Positions 7,881-43,696 of a DNA stretch of 64,000 nt are shown piece after piece. Position numbers and translations under genes: made by a program. The stretch's first letter is position 1. Each line of letters begins with the position of its first letter. Location: NCBI GenBank assembly GCA_905221605.1, contig CAJNDS010000279.1, positions 62,001-126,000 on the forward strand, read 5' to 3'. The notes under the pieces are model-generated. The model worked only from the letters and a program-made list of their open reading frames with translations. It was not told where the DNA came from and searched no databases. Source of the DNA: Symbiodinium natans. Its lineage: Eukaryota > Sar > Dinophyceae > Suessiales > Symbiodiniaceae.

Positions 7881-8193
7881 ACATTCAACCCCTAACCCTA
7901 AACCCTAGACCCTAAGCCCTAAGCCCTAAACCCTAGACCCTAGACCCTAAACCCTAAACCCTAAACCCTAAGCCCTAAGCCCTAAACCAAAACTCCTCAA
8001 CCTGGACATATTCCTGACCAGCCACAGGTCCCGTGTGGAGCAGGCCATCCCGCAGCGCGAGTCTTGTGCAACGTGCCCTTGAGTGCCTGTGCCTGCAGCG
8101 GTGTGCGCCGATGCTTTCGTCGATGCCTGCTTGTGATCTCAAGAGGGCATGAAACCCCGTGTGCCCCATTCGTAAACCGAACCGAACTTCATA

Positions 8194-10089
8194 ATGCTGA
8201 GGCGTAGTTTGCTACTCTTGCTGACAGAGCTCTCGACAGAGTCCTCGATAGAGTCGAGGGAGTCGGGGCCACTGACGGACGAACTCTTCGCCCGTGGTTT
8301 CTCAGCCGTGACGGTCCCCATCGGCCCTGGCGTGCTTCTGGTGATCGTCATCTTCATCGTGCTCCTTGCAGCCCACGAAGCCTTTGTGGCTTCTGGGGCA
8401 AAGCCGCTGCTGGCAAACCACGAGAAGCCCAACAGCCTGCCGTTGCAGTGCGCGTTTGCGATAAATTGGCTCCTCATGATGGTGAACCTTTCAATGCTTG
8501 TACCAGTGTCTCTGGATTACGCACTGGCCATGGGACACTCTGCTACTGCCAGTGGAGCTTTCCTCAGCGCGCCCATGCTTTTTGCCGTGCTTGGCACGAT
8601 GCTGGGGAGACGCCTCACAAGCGAAGTGAACTGGGACCAGCCATTCGCCCGACGTGTGCTTTTGGGCAGCCATGGTTTATCTTTCACCGGCACCCTGATC
8701 CTGGCATTCTTGATGCAGGCGGCATCCCACTGGAACGATGCGACGAGGAAAGCATCCTTCTGGTGCTTCTTCTTTGCACACGGTGTGAACCAATTCTTCA
8801 ACGCCCTCCCGATCGTGAGCTGGGCCACCATGTGGAACGTTGTGACGCCCAACAGCCAGAAGACCCTCTGGAGCATGATCGCCATCGCGTGTCGTAACTG
8901 TGGCTTCATCGTGGGCCCAGTGTGCTTCGCTGCTATCAGTTACTTGGTGCGGAGGGGGCGCGACATCTCTCCGATCAGCATGATGGGCTGGTCCTTTGTT
9001 GGGCTCGCGACGTTTCAAGCTTTGCTTCTGACGGCTGGGTCCCTCTGCTTGCCGACCGTAGTCTCTCCTCCTGAGGAGGATGAAAACGCCGCGGCGGAGG
9101 ATCTGGATGTCGAGCTGAGCCCAGAGGATCAGCCTGCCACATCCCAAACCATCCCCAGACTGGCCCAGAATCCTGGGCCCCCATGCCTTTCCAAATATAT
9201 GCAGTCGCTAGTACTTGGAACCAAGGGAAGGTAAAAAGTAGGTTTGGGGGTTCTTAGCAGTATAAACGACATCGAGCCTCGGCAAAGTGCAGGACCTCCC
9301 GCCAGAGTCGCGGCAGGAAATGGTGAGGAACATCATCATCTACAGCTATGAGCGGCCCTTCACCGTCGCCGCCATCGAGGTCTCCACAATGATGCTCTTG
9401 GAAGTGCAATATGGGTGGTCGAAAGAGTCCTGTGGAGCTTCCTTCATGACGGTGGGCGCGGCCACTATGGCCACCACCATCATCTCCACCGTTGTGGTGA
9501 GCAGGAAGTGGATCAGAGAATCCTGGCTCTTCCTGGGCTCCACCTTAATCTCCCTTTTTGGCATCGTCCTGCTCTTTGACTTTAGGCTGCCAGGGGCTTT
9601 GGGAGGTGGTTGGACCCTGCTCTTGGCTGACTCCTTGGTCTACGCCTTCTCCGGCGTCTCCAACGGCATCGCACAGGGCTGGGCCTCCCGAGCGGCCATG
9701 AAGGGCACGAGCTACGACATCCAGACCTACCGGGCACAGAAGCTCATACTCATACTGTGAGCTCAAATTTAAATTCTTGCATGTCTCAAACCAATCACCT
9801 ACGGTGCCGTAAGCTCGTTTTTGCTTATATATATATATATGTAGGTAAAACCTGTTAAGCTCCTCGTCCCCTCCTGAAGCCTTGAAGGAACGTGGCTGCG
9901 CTCCAGATCACCAGGTTCCTGGTCCCCATCTTCACCCGCTTTGTCGTGGACTACGGAGGCCGGAACACCTACGCCCTGGTTCAGCTGCTCATGTGCGCCC
10001 TGGGCACCTCCACCGTCTGGCGCACCGTGAGCCTTGTCTGGCGGGGGGTGAAGCACCATCACAAGAAGTCAAAGAGCGAGCCTGTATAG
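8194..10089 (+). CDS. MFS-like multi-pass transporter, tandem copy A
   Basis: Three exons, 8194-9174, 9293-9732 and 9888-10089 (stop TAG), give 540 residues, a usual length for major facilitator superfamily carriers. Seen: a short polar N-terminus, about ten or more hydrophobic segments (for example VLLVIVIFIVLLAAHEAF near residue 50, and a C-terminal FLVPIFTRFVVDYGGRN), a loop FAVLGTMLGRRL resembling the MFS loop 2-3 motif, and an acidic linker (PPEEDENAAAEDLDVE) between the halves. The start ATG follows a stretch conserved with copy B but broken by 3- and 4-nt indels, so that stretch is 5' UTR. Introns use GG-AG borders where copy B has GA-AG. They contain no telomeric repeat. Substrate unknown. 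Confidence 0.75.
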
Positions 10090-11150
10090 AACACCTGCCA
10101 GATAAAGGTGGCTGCATGCAAATTTGCAGGAGAACTACAAGTTTCGGGACAGTGACTGCTGCCTATGATGAGACTCGAGCTGCACTGTGTCACATTGGCG
10201 ATGCTCCCACCCAGGGGGAGTTATTTCATATACCTCGTCACGGTTGCTGAGGGCTCTCCTCGCTCCGGGCGCTGTCGGTTCATCCGCGCGCGCGTTTCAC
10301 TGGTCCTTGCTCTCGTGACGGTGGATGGAATTTCACCTACAGCTGTCAAGAGCGCTGAGGTTTTTTCTTCGCTCTGTAGATAGCCGGGCTCTTTGAGCTT
10401 GCTCCTGACCATGCGCCCCAAGGGCACCGGGCGGCTGCCCGCGTCCTCAAAGTCAAAAAGTCCTTAAGGGCCTGCGCCTTGCAGTGGTGGCCCACCAGCG
10501 TCCGCAAAGTCACGCTAGGCTGCTGAAGACGGACGAGGACCTCGCGCAAAAGCAGGCGAGCAAGCTCCTTTTAAGCAGGATCCTCTGGGCGATCCGAACT
10601 CAAGAAGCGCTCCGCTTTGCCCAGTATATGCTTTCTGCCATGTTTGAGGGGTCCCAAAAACCCTAAGGCCCTTGGCTGCCATGGAGGACTCAACTTGGTG
10701 CCTCCAGGCAGAGCACCCGAAAGGTTTCGAGGTTTTTCGGCTTTCTGGGAGTAGGTTTTAAGGGTCTTGTGAGTGATCTTCGCGGGGGGTGCGGGCGTTA
10801 GGGCCTTTTGAGTTTAGCCAAGACACAAGTTGAGGCGTTTCTGCCGCAGTTGTTTTTGTTTTTTTTGGGGCGTGCCTTATTTGCAGAGGAAGACTTTCCT
10901 CCCAAGAGGCGATTCTGTAAACTGGGTCCGTGATCAGTGCTCATCCTATAGGCATTTAAGCAGACTCCCAAGCCTCCCTGGACGCATTCCTGACAAGCCA
11001 CAGGTCCCCAGTTGTGTGAGACTTCTGCAACTTGCCCCTGTGCTTGCGCCTTCATGCAGCGGTGTGCGCCGATGCTTTCGTCGCCTGCTTGTGATCTCAA
11101 GCCAGAGGGCATGAAACCCCGTGTGCCCCATTCGTAAACCGAACCGAACT
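10090..11150. other. Spacer between the two transporter copies
   Basis: About 1.06 kb. The last 170 bp match the 5' UTR of copy A (both have CAGCGGTGTGCGCCGATGCT). The rest has short open frames on both strands, none with recognisable features. No telomeric array is present. Confidence 0.5.
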
Positions 11151-11152
11151 TC

Positions 11153-13034
11153 ATGATGCTGAGGCGTAGTTTGCTACTCTTGCTGACAGAGCTCTCGACA
11201 GAGTCCTCGATAGAGTCGAGGGAGTCGGGGCCACTGACGGACGAACTCTTCGCCCGCGGCTTCTCAGCCGTGACGGTCCCCATCGGCCCTGGCGTGCTTC
11301 TGGTGATCGTCATCTTCATCGTGCTCCTTGCAGGCCACGAAGCCTTTGTGGCTTCTGGGGCAAAGCCGCTGCTGGCAAACCACGAGAAGCCCAACAGCCT
11401 GCCGTTGCAGTGCGCGTTTGCGATACATTGGCTCCTCATGCTGGTGAACCTTTCAATGCTTGTACCGGTGTCTCTGGACTACGCGCTGGCCATGGGACAC
11501 TCTGCTACTGCCAGCGGAGCTTTCCTGAGTGTCCCCATGCTTTTTGCCGTGCTTGGCACGATGCTAGGGAAACCCCTCACAAGCGAAGTGAACTGGGACC
11601 AGCCGTTCGCCCGACGTTTGTTTCTGGGCTGCCATGTGTTCGCGTTTACTGGTGCCCTGGTCCTGGCATTCTTGATGCAAGCGGCATCCCAATGGAACGA
11701 TGCGACGAGGAAAACATCCTTCTGGGGCTTCCTCCTTGTCAGCGGTGTAAACGAATTCTTCAACGCCCTCCCGATGGTGGGCTTGAACACCATGTGGAAC
11801 GTCGTCACGCCCAACAGCCAGAAGACGCTCTGGAGCATGATCGCCAGCGCATGTCGGAACTCCGGATTCATCGTGGGCCCGGCGTGTTTCGCTGCTATCA
11901 GCTGCTTGGGGCGGAGGGGGCGCGACATTTCTCCCATCAGCATGATGGGCTGGTCCTTTGTTGGGCTCGCGATGTTTCACGCTTTGCTTCTGATGGCTGG
12001 GTCCCTCTGCTTGCCGACGGTGGTCTCTCCTCCTGAGGAGGATGAAAACGCCGCGGCTGAGGATCTGGATGTGGAGCTGAGCCCAGAGGATCATCCTGCC
12101 ACATCCCAAACCATCCCCAGAATGACCCAGAATCCTGAACTAGACTGTTGAATCAGGCTCCCCATGTTTCAAGAACCCGAAGGCATGTTTGGTTTCCAGG
12201 TTGTGCCTAATAGAAGCAATCGGTAGTACTTGGAACCAAGGGAAAGCAAACGTAGGTTGGGCGACAGCAAACCTCGGCAAAGCGCAGGACCTCCCGCCAG
12301 AGTCGCGGCAGGAAATGGTGAGGAACATCATCATCTACTGCTATGAGCGGCCTTTCACCGTCTCCGCCATCGAGGTCTCCACGATGATGCTCTTGGAAGT
12401 GCAATATGGGTGGTCGAAAGAGTTCTGTGGAGCTTCCTTCATGGCGGTCGGCGCGGCCACTTTGGCCACCACCATCATCTCCACCTTTGTGGTGAGCAGG
12501 AAGTGGATCAGAGAATCCTGGCTCTTCCTGGGCTCCACCTTAATCTCCCTCTCTGGCGTTTTCCTGCTCTTTGACTTTAGGCTGCCAGGGGCTTTGGGAG
12601 GTGGCTGGACCCTGCTCTTGGCTGACTCCTTGGTCTACGCCTTCTCCGGCGTCTCCATGGGCCTCGCCCAAGGCTGGGCTGGACGTGCGGCCATGAAGGG
12701 CACGAGCTTCGACATCCAGACATACCGGATGCGGAGTCTCAGCTTCTTCTGAATGATCGTACGTTTCCTAACCGATCACTACGCCTGGTACGGTACAAGC
12801 CTTTTTTGCCTCCCTTTTTTTGAACCTCCTTCGTCTTGCATGAGGAGTGTGGGCGCGATCCAGATCACCAGGTTCCTGGTCCCCATCTTCACCCGCTTTG
12901 TCGTGGACTACGGAGGCCGGAACACCTACGCCCTGGTTCAGCTGCTCATGTGCGCCCTGGGCACCTCCACCGTCTGGCGCACCGTGAGCCTTGTCTGGCG
13001 GGGTCGCAGGAATTCAAAGAGCGAGCCTGTCTAG
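11153..13034 (+). CDS. MFS-like multi-pass transporter, tandem copy B
   Basis: Exons 11153-12136, 12288-12727 and 12845-13034 (stop TAG) give 537 residues, near identical to copy A in the N-terminal 130 codons and more diverged in the middle (LFLGCHVFAFTGALVLAF against VLLGSHGLSFTGTLILAF). Intron positions are the same as in copy A, with GA-AG borders (CCT then GAACTA; CCG then GATGCG). The first intron differs in sequence and length from copy A. The C-terminal tail lost four codons (histidine and lysine rich) relative to copy A. Both copies have intact frames, so both are probably functional. An array of TTTAGGG starts 20 bp after the stop. Confidence 0.75.
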
Positions 13035-15587: not shown

Positions 15588-18031
15588 ATGAGCTGCTGTC
15601 AGCGAGAGCAATGCGATGCTCACGAGTTGGCGAATCCTTGGTCTTCTTGGTGCCCAGTGACAGATCCTGAAGCCCAGTTCGATGAGGATCACGACAGGCA
15701 ATCATGTGGCTCCGGTGAATCATATCAAGGTCTCAGTGGAATGCAGATCGCCAGGACCAGTTGGAGCTTCCCAGCCCTTAGATGATCTGGGATAGTCTGG
15801 AAGAATTACAGCATTACCTGAACTTTGTGGGTCATTCGGTGTGTTTTGCTCAAGTGTACGGGTGCAGAAGTAGTGTTCTGGAGTAGGCACTTCTTTGGAG
15901 ATCAATGCAGCGTAAGTGTGCAGAACATCTTGTGTGACACCCACGAAACGCAGGAGCCTGAGCCAAGATTCTCGCGGCGGTTCGCCAACTTCCCCAACTC
16001 TCGGGCATGCGCTCTCCGAGGCCCAGCACGATAAACCCTAAGAACCCTAAACCCAAAAAACCCAAAAAAACCCTAAACCCTAAAAACCTTAAAACCCTGC
16101 TTAAAAAGCCCTAAAAACCCCCAAACCCAGATCTGGCGTGAGCCCAGCAAGCTGGCGACGCCCACGGAGACGGCCGTCGACGAATGGATGCGCAGCGTCT
16201 CCCTGCGGAGAACCTTGGCCCGGCCGCGTGCATTCTGGTTCGCCGACCCTTCTACCCGAAACTTCGGGGGATAGTTGGGAATATGTTTTAATAAAAGAGT
16301 TTTATAATTATTATTAAGTACTCTACAGTAGTTACGCGACTTCCTGAGAAAGAGCTGAAGTTGACATTTTGTTAGGGGGTTCAAAGAGTTCAGTACAGGA
16401 AACCAGAAGCAGAAGGAGCAGCTGTACCGGGCCTCTGTGAGAACAAGCAGCATCGACAAGTTCATCTCACATACCTGGAAGACGAAGGGACAATGGAAAT
16501 TCTTGTCCCTTCTGCTTCATTTCGGCTGGCCAATCGTGCTGACATGCTGGGCATGTGGAGTTGCGATCGCTTTCAGCCTCTGTATGCTGGATGTCCTACC
16601 TCTTTTTAATGTTTGGGAGGTCCACGCCCTTGGCTACGACGGCGTGATTCCTTCTGGTTGCTGGATCCAGCTGTTCGGCTTCCTCTCCGTCTTTCTCGGA
16701 TGCCTCGTCTTTCCGCATGTGCCGCACGAGTCAGACCAGTGCTTTCTCGACTTCTCCTGTATCCATCAGACGGAGAGAGATAAGACGAAGCAGGGGATCA
16801 TGTCGATCTCCGCTTTCCTCATGCGCTCCGCGGAGTTGCGGGTGCTCTGGAGCGCGCCCCTCTTCTCCCGGCTGTGGCTTATCAGCAAGGCAATGGATTT
16901 GTTGACTTTCAAGGGCTTTCCTTCTGAACAGTAGGAAGAGCAAAGCTTCAACTTTCGAAGCGTCCTCGGTTATTGCAGAAGTAAGGTGGTGTGTCTTCGA
17001 ACTCGCGGCATATCGCAAGCTGAATCCCGAAGGCAAGATCGTCGTGGAGCAGGTGAACCTTGCGCGCCAGTGGTACCCCGTGTTGTGCCACCTTGTCTTT
17101 CTCTTTTTTCTTGTGGGGGGGGGGGGGGGGTTCTCGTTATTTTAAGTAGCCTGAAGATCAGGGAGGGCATTTAATAAGGGTTCAGGGTTTAGGGTTCAGG
17201 TGTTAGGGTTCTGGGTTTGGGGTTGAGACATTAGGGTTATAAGAAAGTGACACTGGGCCAGCAGTAAGGAACAACGAGCTCTCCGCATGCCTGATGTTCT
17301 TCTGGTGGCAAGCGTCTTGCGCTGCCTTCTGGATTCTCCGGTCAGGGCCCGATGGTGGCAACCCCCAAGGCTTGTTACTGGTGCTGGCCCTTTGTTTCAG
17401 CGCCTTGGTACCTGCGGCCACGCACGCAATATGGAGGAATCACAAAAGTGCTGAGAAGTTGAAGTCCGACTTGGCCAACTTCGATGTGACGAAGGTCTCT
17501 TGCAGCAGTGACTTCGATCGAGTCTGCATTCACAAGGCAATCACCACCTGGTACGGTAGCCTCGAAGCCTTCTCCGCACATGTGCGAGGGCCCTTCAGCC
17601 AAGAGGTACTGGAGTTGATGCGCACGAGCGGATCCGTCTCCTCCCACTACATCCTTTTGCCCATCAGCCCCCTTGTGTGTCTCTCGATGGACAATGTCCT
17701 GGCACTCTGCAAAGCAGGCGCCCCGGCCATTAGCATCATTAGCGTTTTCTTCAACCACGTGATCGCGATGGATTTGCTCTTTCTGCCAGCTATGGCCACT
17801 TTCTTCACGTGGAGAGCCCAAAGGGGACTCTGGCTTGGGAGTTGCAGGTGCAAACCCTTTGCCCTGGAAATAATTATTCTTCAGATACTTTGCATCATCG
17901 CGTCTATTGCAGGAGCCTTTGTTTCGGTCGTCGTCTCGGCAAGAAGCATAGAGCTGACACTTGCCTGGAACCTCTCCGCGCTCCTTTTCGCGTGCTGCGT
18001 GCGGCGCTTCTGTTGGCGTCCATCCTCGTGA
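15588..18031 (+). CDS. Multi-pass membrane protein with TIR-like signature, tandem copy A
   Basis: Seven exons rejoin in phase: 15588-15780, 15868-15911, 15954-16025, 16143-16269, 16399-16873, 16986-17051, 17269-18031 (stop TGA), giving 579 residues. Seen: an acidic Ser-rich N-terminus, then FISHTWKTKGQWK, two or three membrane segments (LTCWACGVAIAFSLCML; LFGFLSVFLGCLVF), CFLDFSCIHQTE, SAELRVLWSAPLFSRLW joined across an intron to CVFELAAY, then at least five C-terminal membrane segments. The pattern SH-W, a short acidic D-x-x-CIHQ motif, LW-x-RLWCVFEL is like TIR-related proteins common in protists; this is my reading, not a database match. Borders: GA-AG, GT-AG, GC-AG, GA-AG, GT-AG, GG-AG. 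The 5' UTR is shared with copy B. Confidence 0.7.
15912..15953 (+). other. 42-nt intron, reference state for the copy B telomeric insertion
   Basis: GTAAGT to CGCAG, no repeat. In copy B the matching intron (19007-19137) holds twelve TTTAGGG units between the same flanking sequences. Confidence 0.75.
16270..16398 (+). other. Intron of repeated family 1 (GA-AG)
   Basis: 129 nt with TTTAATAAAAGAGTTTTATA, CTGAGAAAGAGCTGAAGTTG and the tail TTCAGTACAG. The related intron in copy B (about 19506-19781) contains this unit twice and is longer. Confidence 0.65.
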
Positions 18032-18657
18032 CATGTGTACAGAATCGCAGGAAATCAACAGGTTTCCGTTTCACTCGCATCTCCCGGTTATTTGAGTAAA
18101 ACGTGTCCGGGGGAGGGTAGCTCCTGCTTTCTTGACATGCTTTTGTGAGTTTTGAGCGGGTACTATGTGTGATTCTAGCATCTTATGTACACTGAACTCG
18201 GAACTGTGGGATTGATGAGGGGGGGGGGGGGGGCCAAGCGCCTCCTCACGGTGTGGTTGGTTTCAAACGACCCGCTAAACCCAAACCCAAAGAACCTTCT
18301 AAACCGAGGCTTCAGGCCAAGGGTCCATGCAAATTTCGGAAAAGTTTCCAGAAATAAGGGGGGGGGGGGGGGGGGGGTGGAGTAGTACCCTTTCTGGGGG
18401 TTCCTGCAACAAAGACTGTCTCACTTTGGTGGGCTAATAAGGGGTACCCCCTACCATATGAAATGCCCGTATTGCCTTCAGATTCCAAAAGTCTCTGCTT
18501 CAGCCTGGCCATGGCGTACCTGCAAGTTGAAGCAAGTGAGCCCCGCAGGATCTGGCTTGAATCGCTTCGCGAGGAGTTTGGTCTTCGTTTTAAATCTTTC
18601 TCACGGGCGTTTCACCTTTTGAAGTTGTCGCTTCTTCGGCGACCTTAGCCTGATGCC
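18032..18657. other. Spacer between copies A and B
   Basis: 3' flank of copy A, poly-G runs at 18219-18233 and 18359-18378, a GGGGTACCCC-containing segment at 18380-18465, then from about 18561 the 5' UTR of copy B (matches 15496 onwards). No separate gene supported. Confidence 0.5.
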
Positions 18658-21600
18658 ATGAGTTGCTGTGAGCGAGAGCAGTTCGATGCTCACGAAACAG
18701 CGAATCCTTGGTCTTCTTGGTGCCCAGTGACAGATCCGGAAGCCCAGTTCGATGAGGATCGCGGCAGGCAATCGCGCGGCTCCAGTGAGACCAATCAAGG
18801 TCTCAGCGGAATGCAGATCGCCAGGACCAGCTGGAGCTTCCCAGCCCTTAGATGATCTGGGATAGCCTGGGAGACTTACAGGGTTACCTGAACTTTGTGG
18901 GTCTTTCGGTATCTTTTGCTCAAGTGTACGGGTGGTAGAGGTCGTGGTCTGGAGTAGGCACTTCTTTGGAGACGTAAGAAAGGACCCAAGCTCGTTCCAT
19001 CACAGCGCAAGTGTGCATAAAGATTTAGGGTTTAGGGTTTAGGGTTTAGGGTTTAGGGTTTAGGGTTTAGGGTTTAGGGTTTAGGGTTTAGGGTTTAGGG
19101 TTTAGGGCCCTCTTGTGTGAACACCCACGAAACGCAGGACTTCGAGCCCAGATTCTCAAGGCACTTCGCTCGCTCTCGGGGATGGGCTCTCCCAGGCCCA
19201 GCACGAGCCTCCCCAAACCCTAAACCCTAAACCCTAAACCCTAAACCCTAAACCCTAAAACCTTAACCCTGAACCCGGAACCCTAAGCTCTGAACCCTAA
19301 ACCCTAAAACCCTCAACCCTAAACCCTTAAACCCTAAGCCCTGAACACCCTCAATTCCCAGGTCCGGAACCAGCCCAGCAAGCTGGCGACGCCCACGGAG
19401 ACGGCCGTCGACGAATGGATGCGCAGCGTCTCCCTGCGGAAGACATTGGCCCGGCCGCGTGCATTCTGGTTCGCCGACCCTTCTACCCGAAACTTCGGGG
19501 GGTAGTTGGGAATATGTTTTAATAAAAGAGTTTTATAATTATTATTAAGTACTCTACAGTAGTTACTCTACTTCCTGAGAAAGAGCTGAAGTTGACTATT
19601 GGGTTACTAGAATTCCTAAGAAGCAGCTAGGGGTTCCGAGTTCAGTATAGGACACTTAGGGATGCTTGGATGCTTGGGAAGAGTATGAATAATTGAGTAC
19701 TCTACAGTAGTTACTCTAATTTCTGAGAACCAGCTGAAGTTGAAGCTTTGTTAGGGGGTTCAAAAAGTTCAGTATAGGAAACCAGAAGCAGAAGGAGCAG
19801 CTGTACCAGGCCTCTGTGAGAACAAGCAGCATCGACAAGTTCATCTCACATACCTGGAAGACGAAGGGACAATGGAAATTCTTGTCCCTTCTGCTCCATT
19901 TCGGCTGGCCAATCGTGCTGACATGCTGGGCATGTGGAGTTGCGATCGCCTTCAGCCTTTGCATGTTGGATGTCCTACCTCTTTTTAATGTTTGGGAGGT
20001 CCACGCCCTTGGCTACGACGGCGTGATTCCTTCTGGTTGCTGGATCCAGCTGTTCGGCTTCCTCTCCGTCATTCTCGGATGCCTCATCTTTCCGCATGTG
20101 CCGCACGGGTCAGACCAGTGCTTTCTCGACTTCTCCTGTATCCATCAGACGGAGAGCACCAAGACGCTTACTTCGCCAATAGTGGAACTTGAAACTCTTT
20201 CGGCCTCCTTATTTCGTAGGAACGGTATACGGTTTAGGGTGTAGGGTTTAGGGTTCAGGGTTTAGGGTTTAGGGTTTAGGGATTAGGGGTTTGGGTTTAG
20301 GGTTTAGGGTTTAGGGTTGGTTCTTGGAGAAGACTTCAGGACGAAGCAAGGGATCATGTCGATCCCGGCCTTCCTGATGCGCTCCGCGGAACTGCGGGTG
20401 CTCTGGAGCACCCCACTCCTCTCCCGGCTGTGGCTTAGAAATAGCAAAGAAATTAACTCTTTCAACTTTGGCGGCGGGGGGGGGCTTCAGGCCATTTTGC
20501 ACCTGTTTGTCAGCTGCTTTTTGCGTTTTGTCCGAGTTCTGGGGAAGAGTACAGCTCCACCTTGTTTGTTTCCCCTGTTATTGCAGAAGTAAGGTGGTGT
20601 GTCTTCGAAATCGCAGCATATCGCAAGCTGAATCCCGAAGGCAAGATCGTCGTGGAGCAGCTGAACTTTGCCCCAGTTGTACCCTGTTTTCCCGCACCCC
20701 CGCCCCCCCCCCCCCCCCCCCGCCCTTTAGGGTTTAGGGTTTTTGTTGTTGTGGGAGTTTGCGGGGAGGGGGACGCCGGGGGGGGGGGGCTTCTGCTTAG
20801 TTTTTCAAGCAGCCTCTTAAAATCAAGGAGCACAATCGTTTTGTTGTAGTATGGCTACCGGGGCCATCAGTAAGGAACAACGAGCTCTCCGCATGCCTGC
20901 TGTTTTTGTGGTGGCAAGTGTCTTGCGCTGCCTTCTGGATTCTCCGGTCAGGGCCCGGGGGCGGCAGCCTCTGGGGCTTGCTACTCGTGCTGGTCATTTG
21001 TTTCAGTGTCCTGGTGCCGGCGGCCACGCACGCAATATGGAGGAATCACAAGAGTGCTGAGATTTTGAAGTCCGACTTGGCCAACTTCGATGTGACGAAG
21101 GTCTCTTGCAGCATTGACTTCGATCGAGACTGCACCTTGCTAGCCCGCTGGTACCCTTTTACCCTTTTTATCCGGTTCTGGGTTCCCTTCTAAAGTAACT
21201 AACCCAAAAACGGGTACCCTTGTTACATTATGGTTACTGGGCTACCAAGGCATTTACGAGGCCATCACCACCTGGTACGGCAGCCTCGAGGCCTTCTCCG
21301 CACATGTGCGAGGGCCCTTCAGCCAAGATGTTCTGGAGTTGATGCGCGCGAGCGGAAGCGTCTCCTCCCACTACGTCCTATTGCCCATCAGCCCCCTTGT
21401 GTGCCTCTCGATGGAAAATGTCCTGGCGCTCTGCAAAGCAGGCGCCCCGGCCATTAGCATCATCAGCTTCTTCTTCAACCACGTGATCTCCTTAGATTTG
21501 CTCTTTCTGCCAGCTATGGCCACTTTCTTCACGTGGAGAACGCAGAGGGGGCTTTGGCTTCGGAGTTGCAGGTGCAAACCGCTTGCGCTGGAAATCATTA

Positions 21601-21755
21601 TCCTTCAGATGTTTTGCATCATCACGTCAATTGCAGCAGTCTTTGTCGCGATCGTCGTCACGGCAATGAGCATAGAGCTGACGCTTGCCTGGAACCTCTC
21701 CGCGCTCCTTTTCGCGTGGTGCGTTCGGCGCTTCTGTTGGCGTCCATCTTCGTGA
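18658..21755 (+). CDS. Multi-pass membrane protein with TIR-like signature, tandem copy B
   Basis: Same gene as copy A with two extra introns. Supported pieces: first exon from ATG 18658 to 18850; second exon about 18939-19006; 19138-about 19209; about 19374-19504; 19782-20162; 20340-20429; 20594-20659; 20875-21131; 21250-21755 (stop TGA). Residues around the TIR-like motifs are kept: FISHTWKTKGQW, CFLDFSCIHQTE, LRVLWSTPLLSRLW. Extra introns are 20163-20339 (GA-AG) and 21132-21249 (GC-AG). The frame is intact after removing them (DCIYEAITTW against VCIHKAITTW in copy A), so this is probably a working gene. The donor of intron 2 is ambiguous: GTAAGA at 18973 or GCAAGT at 19007. Confidence 0.65.
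19024..19107. repeat. Twelve perfect TTTAGGG units inside a copy B intron
   Basis: 84 bp, exactly twelve units. Sequences on either side (AAGTGTGCA before, CTTGTGTG and CACCCACGAAACGCAG after) match the 42-nt intron of copy A, so the array is an insertion in a pre-existing intron. Confidence 0.9.
20163..20339 (+). other. Copy-B-specific intron carrying telomeric repeats (GA-AG)
   Basis: 177 nt. Telomeric TTTAGGG and variants occupy about 20229-20320, with unique flanks. GACG occurs at both edges and once at the uninterrupted site of copy A. Removal restores the reading frame EST-KTKQGIM exactly as in copy A. Confidence 0.75.
21132..21249 (+). mobile_element. Copy-B-specific TIR intron (introner element, GC-AG)
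   Basis: 118 nt beginning GCACCTTGCTAGCCC and ending GGGCTACCAAG. Ends are inverted repeats of the family seen at 2874-2984. GCA is repeated on both sides. Excision as GC-AG rebuilds the coding sequence of copy A at this site. Linear DNA has an in-frame stop here, so it must be removed for function. Confidence 0.8.
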
Positions 21756-21789
21756 CATGTGTGCAGAAACGCGGGGAACCTCCTGCTTC

Positions 21790-41892: not shown

Positions 41893-43384
41893 TCCTCAGG
41901 TCCCAGCGGGCAGCGAGAACACGGGCCATGACGGTGAGTTGACGGGAACGCTCATGGCGCCCCGGGATCTCAACTGCCGCTACGCGATCTTCATTGAGAT
42001 GCTCCGATTCCAACAAGCTGGGGTAAGGTTGCTTATCAGAGTCTCTCTGTCTCTCTCTCCCTCTCTCTCTCTCTTTCTCTTTCTCTCTCTCCCTCTCTCT
42101 CCCTCTCTCTCTCTCTACATATATGTATATATATATATGTATATGAATATGTGTGATTGTATGTATATCTATACATGAACTATGCATATGTTATCGTATA
42201 CAGATACGCATTCACTATGAATACACATAGCCAACCACAGTATGCCATTTCCAAGAGGTATAAGGTTTTCTGAACACTTGCGTAGATTTTTGTGGTTGTC
42301 GACGTTTACGTAATTCACGTCTACTCGAAAAACTTCTACCCGCCCATGCCTCCATACAAAACACCCCGTCGAGAGCCAAAAGAGTCGCAGCTATGGAGCT
42401 ATGGTTACCAGGGGAAGGTCCGATCCGGGGCAGCTTTTCTGCTCTTACTTTGGTGAATCCCCACCCCCCCCCCCCCCCCCCGCCCCCCCCGAAAAAGAAA
42501 ATAAATGCAAAAAATAGCACAAGTTGCCCAGAATTTGAGTGGCTCCGGGTCATCATGGGCCCTGGTGAAACTCAGATTGCCCTCCTGGAATCTCGTGGAG
42601 AGGGGGGCGTCTAGGGTTTAGGGTCTGGGGTTTAGGGTTTAGGGTCCTGAAACCCGGCGCCACAGAAAGTTTGGCCAGCCCGAAGCCCGAGAACCTTACA
42701 CCTTGAAGCCCTAAACCCTAAAGAGCCTTACACCCGCAACCCTGCAATCCCAGACCATCAACCCGAACAACCCCAAGCCAACCGTGATACGCGTTTAGGA
42801 AGAAGACATCTTGCACCAGCTTCGCTGCAACGGCTGTGCTCACCAAAGGAGGGGTCAGGGATTTGCAGGTTTTGGGGAGTTGGGCTCGAAGCTTTATAAG
42901 GTTACGGGCTGCATTTCACTTCTTGGAGTTTTCGGGTATTTTATAGGGCCGCTCGGAAGTGCTGGTGGGCACGATCTGCGCTGAGAACCCTAAGCCTCTG
43001 AGCACTGGACCGCGGACCCATAAGCGGTGCATAATGTTGGCCAGTAAAAGTCTATAGTGGTAGGTGGGGGGGGAGGCTGTCCACGCAGCGGGGTGCATGA
43101 CTTATGGCTCGGTGATTTCTGGTGGCATGGTGGATTGTGTGTGTGTGTGTGTGTGTGTGTCTGTGTCTGTGTCTGTGTCTGTGTCTGTGTCTGTGTCTGT
43201 GTCTGTGTCTGTGTCTGTGGCTGTGTCTGTGTCCTGTGTGTCTGTGTGTCTGTGTCTGTGTCTGTGTCTGTGTCTGTGTCGGTGTCTGTGTGTGTGTCTG
43301 TGTCTGTGTCTGTGTCTGTGTCTGTGTCTGTGTCTGTGTCTGTGTCTGTGTCTGTGTCTGTGTCTGTGTCTGTGTCTGTGTGTG

Positions 43385-43459
<75 letters not shown>

Positions 43460-43512
43460 TGTGTGTGTGTGTGTGTGTCTGTGTGTGTGTGTGTGTTGTC
43501 TGTGTGTGTGTG

Positions 43513-43565
<53 letters not shown>

Positions 43566-43696
43566 TGTGTGTGTGTGTGTGTGTCTGTGTGTGTGTGTGT
43601 CTGTGTGTGTGTGTGTGTCTGTGTGTGTGTGTGTGTGTCTGTGTGTGTGTGTGTGTGTCTGTGTGTGTGTGTGTGTGTGTGTGTTTTCTTCTTTTT

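Follow-up and report, generated by a model that had tools for sequence, protein, structure and literature searches.

How does a gene come to carry an intron of which about half reads like telomere, when the matching site in its tandem neighbour is uninterrupted coding sequence? The question is raised by two paralogous genes of Symbiodinium natans, copies A and B, in the window, by which we mean the whole stretch of DNA that was analysed (G000:C279:62001-126000, 64 kb of a longer contig); the genome searched amounts to 759 Mb. The original prediction was that the intron of copy B had been born by insertion of telomeric DNA, with a 4-bp duplication supplying the splice edges. The comparisons summarized here indicate instead, with a probability that we put at about 0.9, that the insert is an introner, which belongs to a known class of short mobile elements and became an intron in B, and that the telomere-like repeats within it are most likely a separate addition that did not make the intron. 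The case illustrates in detail how an introner adds an intron to a gene, with the empty site next door, and it cautions that telomere repeats within an intron need not mean a telomeric origin.

The insert in copy B and its empty site in copy A

As modelled, the coding stretch of copy A (16383..18034, forward strand) contains two introns and that of copy B (19762..21758, forward strand) four, the start codon being unassigned in both. With introns removed, the joined models are collinear over 1326 nt, stop codon included, and since only 104 of these differ and there are no indels, the alignment is not due to chance. In the exons of both copies, Pfam revealed no family up to an E-value of 0.1, a result that speaks neither for nor against the label TIR-like in its Toll/interleukin sense; the window holds no RNA families at gathering score and no tRNAs in a search with bacterial settings, and no relatives of its sequence were confirmed in viral contigs. 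The genome contains 205 exact copies of a 21-mer that we take to be the dinoflagellate spliced leader (control, 0).

The alignment of A and B confirms a 177-nt insert with GA...AG edges at 20163..20339 (forward strand) that is absent from A. GACG stands on both sides of it in B, on the left as the first bases of the insert, giving the GA 5′ splice edge (20163..20166), and on the right as the first bases of the next exon (20340..20343), and occurs once, in uninterrupted coding sequence, at the site in A (16784..16787). If the insert is retained the frame meets a stop, and if it is removed the frame stays open through the junction and matches A, in accordance with the joined model. The 4-bp repeat allows five registers, of which GA...AG is, as read from the sequence, the sole plausible one. 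The expectation that this intron is filled largely with TTTAGGG proved too high: Tandem Repeats Finder delimits a degenerate array of 88 nt (20231..20318, forward strand), eight exact TTTAGGG units make up 56 nt, and 77 of the 177 nt lie in heptamers with at most one mismatch, which is about half. The remainder of the insert, 68 nt to the left of the array (counting GACG) and 21 nt to its right, contains both arms of one repeat family.

An introner family, its target duplications and its splice edges

The left arm (20167..20222, forward strand) comprises the terminal inverted repeat, corresponds to element positions 1-56 and is 89% identical to a working consensus. When the first 70 nt of the B intron were searched against the genome, with only the best candidates scored, at least 30 other places were found at 81-89% identity; among the matches listed, 26 of 30 have their first base at query positions 4-8, which is where GACG ends or slightly beyond, and none of the 30 extends past position 65. 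The right arm (20317..20339, forward strand) reads TTGGTTCTTGGAGAAG at 20317-20332 and then has an altered end, ACTTCAG instead of TAAG, which gives the 3′ AG. The exact motif TTGGTTNTTGGAGAAG occurs 791 times genome-wide (reversed control, 1), and the copy in the B intron is the only one in the window. A reading of 19 fetched loci, from which the consensus was written by eye, gives an element of approximately 101 bp with inverted ends, CTTACTTC.CCAATA standing at both ends of the consensus with 14 of the first 15 positions in agreement.

As the splice edges fix the first G of GACG, a single 4-bp repeat is weak evidence, and the weight is carried by a test on 25 copies, namely 28 hits minus both strands of locus L050 and the inner right arm of L007; for B, whose element end is altered, the aligned edges were used. 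The 4-bp duplication is exact in 11 copies and preserved in 82 of 100 letters, compared with a mean of 0.56 exact duplications after shuffling, and none of 100,000 shuffles reached 11. The inexact duplications differ at one letter in 12 copies and at three in two (the first copy of L008, and L015), and further exact duplications, outside this test, are found in L007 taken as a whole, L011 and L049. Several features by which introners are recognized were observed: many similar copies at unrelated loci, target duplication, terminal inverted repeats and an empty site in a close relative, here copy A at 16784 and also at 17526. A member of the same family lies in another A/B relative (L035, 3082-3199), at a different position, with a GTTT duplication and GT-AG edges.

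The introner mechanism itself is already known, and the B intron would be a further example. According to the accessible text of Gozashti et al. (2022, PMC9860276), introners of Symbiodinium microadriaticum have 4-bp target site duplications and terminal inverted repeats that carry the 3′ splice site, the 5′ site coming from the duplication, and the example in the legend of their Fig. 2B spans 115 bp. The mechanism is the same as that proposed here, the comparison being with the published description; however, 'telomer' has no occurrence in the main text of that paper, whereas the B intron has an internal array. The B introns likewise resemble what the available part of a review (PMC11453091) reports for dinoflagellates, namely that introner families have recently produced introns (Roy et al., 2023, cited through this review) and that GC and GA splice edges occur; internal telomere arrays are undescribed in that part of its text. 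The introner elements of Amoebophrya, as far as the accessible account goes, share short direct repeats (3-5 nt) at the intron edges together with internal inverted repeats, but differ in their widely variable splice motifs and in that no family-specific inverted repeat was found (PMC7789003). Within the accessible portion of the open-licence literature, we found no description of telomere-bearing introners.

We propose that, after the duplication that gave rise to A and B, a non-autonomous, DNA-transposon-like element of about 100 bp with terminal inverted repeats, presumably mobilized by a transposase acting in trans, inserted in B and duplicated 4 bp of its target, GACG. The duplicated target would have provided the 5′ splice site GA and the right end of the element the AG, so that splicing at AG/GACG would restore the old exon. 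Hence, the idea that the 4-bp duplication supplied the splice edges holds for the 5′ edge and for the first exon bases after the AG, and the AG comes from the element end instead. Copies that lie within coding sequence have a duplication beginning with GT, GC or GA and an element ending with AG; frame, conservation and splice edges lead us to infer that splicing between AG and the duplication would restore the exon in these as well.

At 12 junctions tested by frame, removal of the insert gave one clearly longest open frame in six (both B introns, L011, L035, L044 and L049) and a small margin in L009 (117 versus 98 codons), and the frame alone does not discriminate in L007, L020, L048, L052 and L059. 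In L007 and L049, the profile PF03151 (triose-phosphate transporter) matches the exons, once joined, with no interruption at the junction (E-values 1.6e-21 and 1.8e-14, respectively), and the joined exons of L044 and L052 match an MFS profile below its cut-off. Judged by these 12 junctions, the copies look like introns of different genes whose removal would restore the protein. The triose-phosphate-transporter sequence of contig C778 has two introners, at about 16.2 and 19.5 kb (L007 and L049), and both inserts contain telomere repeats.

Telomere arrays inside and outside introners

The window is dense in telomeric sequence, since two adjoining TTTAGGG units match 303 times in its 64 kb where none is expected; arrays of at least two heptamers amount to 1.9 per kb in the window and 0.5 per kb in 20 paralogue loci. 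The array at 20231-20318 consists of repeats at an internal chromosomal site and in this respect qualifies as an interstitial telomeric sequence. Another, of 12 exact TTTAGGG (84 bp of pure array; 19024..19107, forward strand), lies upstream of copy B; the corresponding DNA upstream of A lacks it, and no introner arm was seen at it. Furthermore, an intron shared by A (17055..17268) and B (20663..20874, both on the forward strand), which is flanked by a GAAC direct repeat and ends in CAGTAAG, has in A its own degenerate array at 17177-17238 and in B its own short array at 20726-20739, where A has none. The different places of the arrays in this shared intron, together with the array found only upstream of B, indicate that arrays enter existing non-coding DNA here.

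Arrays within 30 nt upstream of an exact right arm were found in 14 TTTAGGG and 29 CCCTAAA elements, that is in 43 of 791 (5.4%), distinct elements being counted by eye from 17 and 46 matches, respectively; reversed controls gave 0. We asked whether introners are enriched in telomere arrays and rejected the idea, as an array lies within the same upstream distance of 2.1% of positions in the 20 paralogue loci (97 kb), of 7.3% in the window and of 14% in 19 introner loci, two of them overlapping, all three being a rough local yardstick and not a random sample of the genome.

Fourteen array-bearing copies were compared with the consensus, namely 12 of the 14 TTTAGGG elements (L054 and L055 left out) plus L009 and L007, the latter a partial duplication, and none of the 29 CCCTAAA elements. 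The array is internal to the element in all 14, and both break points are common to no two of them, with break points blurred by the chance alignment of telomeric letters. In eight of the 14, the left arm stops at position 37-45, in the GGGTTT region, and in five at 68-71, at GTTTA; as chance may align telomeric letters with the consensus, and as 25 nt of other sequence precede the array of L047, seeding of the arrays in register is suggestive only.

These copies bear on an alternative in which the element already held its telomere array when it jumped, so that telomere-loaded introners would be mobile as such. The 43 right arms with an array close upstream would suit it, as would the exact target duplications of four array-bearing copies (L009, L044, L052 and L058). 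However, no pair of the compared copies shares both break points; moreover, of the other TTTAGGG elements with an exact right arm close by, 13 in number, none has B's right array junction, the search for its left junction having reached only two bases into the array. We consider this alternative unlikely.

The separate addition of the repeats within an introner already in place is thus the reading that we prefer. The array would have been added within the element, replacing its middle, perhaps in register with the telomere-like GTTTA there, by the same process that puts TTTAGGG arrays into the surrounding non-coding DNA. The most likely route is break repair with a telomeric template or with telomerase, whose part would be presumptive. 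On the sequence evidence, the element, its duplication, its gain in B and the position of the array inside it are established; that the array arrived after the insertion we infer. In mammals, as the accessible text has it, short interstitial telomeric sequences arise by insertion at breaks, frequently keeping the register of 2-3 telomere-like letters at the site and sometimes with loss of flanking sequence (PMC7215372); in S. natans, by comparison, the targets include introners and the arrays are dense.

The original prediction was right about an insertion in B but not about telomeric DNA as the inserting agent. It would require that telomeric DNA entered a staggered break in B, that fill-in produced the GACG duplication and that the telomeric insert became the intron. 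About half of the intron is indeed telomere-like, a pure array did insert upstream of B, and telomeric insertion with duplication of the flanks is documented in mammals, according to the accessible text of the same study (PMC7215372). However, the letters that adjoin GACG on both sides are introner arms and not telomeric, and 14 of the 25 tested family copies share these ends and contain no telomere heptamer, six of these 14 with an exact 4-bp duplication, which makes this origin very improbable.

A different situation is met in a distant paralogue (L063; G000:C2225:119650-120250, reverse strand), in which a 278-nt GT-AG intron, whose removal restores the protein, contains 196 nt in near-exact telomere heptamers and has a 7-bp direct repeat, GTGGATC, on both sides. 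The first 62 nt on its left side are single-copy in the genome, and the intron may instead be a decayed introner of another family. It is conceivable, though we regard it as doubtful, that telomere-type repair repeatedly writes TTTAGGG into introners at GGGTTT and GTTTA, and that telomeric insertion alone made the intron of L063; if so, introner insertion and telomere-type repair would together shape young introns in S. natans. The recurrent arrays in introners offer a ready test of how telomere arrays are seeded. In a same-contig pair of the A/B family (L031), a 304-nt GA-AG intron with CCCTAAA at 8220-8523, a few codons from B's site, is absent from the copy at 1548-1976.

Gain in B and the other introns of the pair

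When the A exon served as protein query against the genome, 139 matches were returned: 113 run unbroken through the site, two are B's own halves, seven terminate within residues 110-119 and 17 before residue 110. B's own insertion site falls at lysine 118, in phase 2. Five of the seven were inspected by eye: the introns of L063 (after glutamine 113) and of L060 and the second copy of L031 (after threonine 114) are near B's site at other positions, that of L061 is near it with its exact position blurred, and in L062 the intron lies upstream, B's site itself being uninterrupted. A tree was built from 23 rows, namely A, B and 21 matches chosen as unbroken, so that it gives placement and not frequency; in it B joins A at full support, beside L023 and L024, the nearest paralogues, which are uninterrupted at B's site. 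A single gain in B would explain both the paralogue pattern and the tree, and the preference of the original prediction for gain over loss is upheld. Exact intron loss via cDNA exists in principle, but an old intron lost in this way from A is scarcely credible, because the site is uninterrupted in close paralogues and most paralogue rows run straight through it, because B stands in the tree as one tip next to A and to relatives that lack a break, and because A keeps its two other introns.

It had also been stated that the other intron positions are shared by the two copies, which is wrong, since B has a second intron without counterpart in A (21132..21249, forward strand). This intron of 118 nt, with GC-AG edges, belongs to another introner-like family; it has a GCA direct repeat on both sides, 12-nt inverted repeats (21135-21146 and 21239-21250) and, with the best 40 of 949 first-look candidates scored, at least 39 other places at 82-87% identity. 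In the A/B alignment, its empty site in A has a single GCA (17526..17528, forward strand). Another copy of this family, 83% identical, lies at 2874-2984 of the window.

Besides the GAAC intron, A and B share an intron flanked by a GTGG direct repeat (16874..16985 in A and 20430..20593 in B, both on the forward strand), whose 3′ end resembles the introner right arm. At the GTGG site, L023 and L024 have an intron as well; the GAAC intron is present in A and B, with L024 uninterrupted there; and the GACG and GCA introns are found in B only. From this differing spread the gene appears to have collected insertions over time, and one gene pair displays insertions of different age.

Three further features of the window may be recorded. 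Two bases to the left of the insertion site, in exons otherwise nearly identical in A and B, four adjacent substitutions set AGAT in A (16778-16781) against CACC in B (20157-20160), and the protein state of B, set beside the paralogues, looks derived. A second tandem gene pair, approximately 88-90% identical, lies at 8142-10046 and 11104-13003, and a 549-bp run of a TG-rich short repeat occupies 43136-43684.
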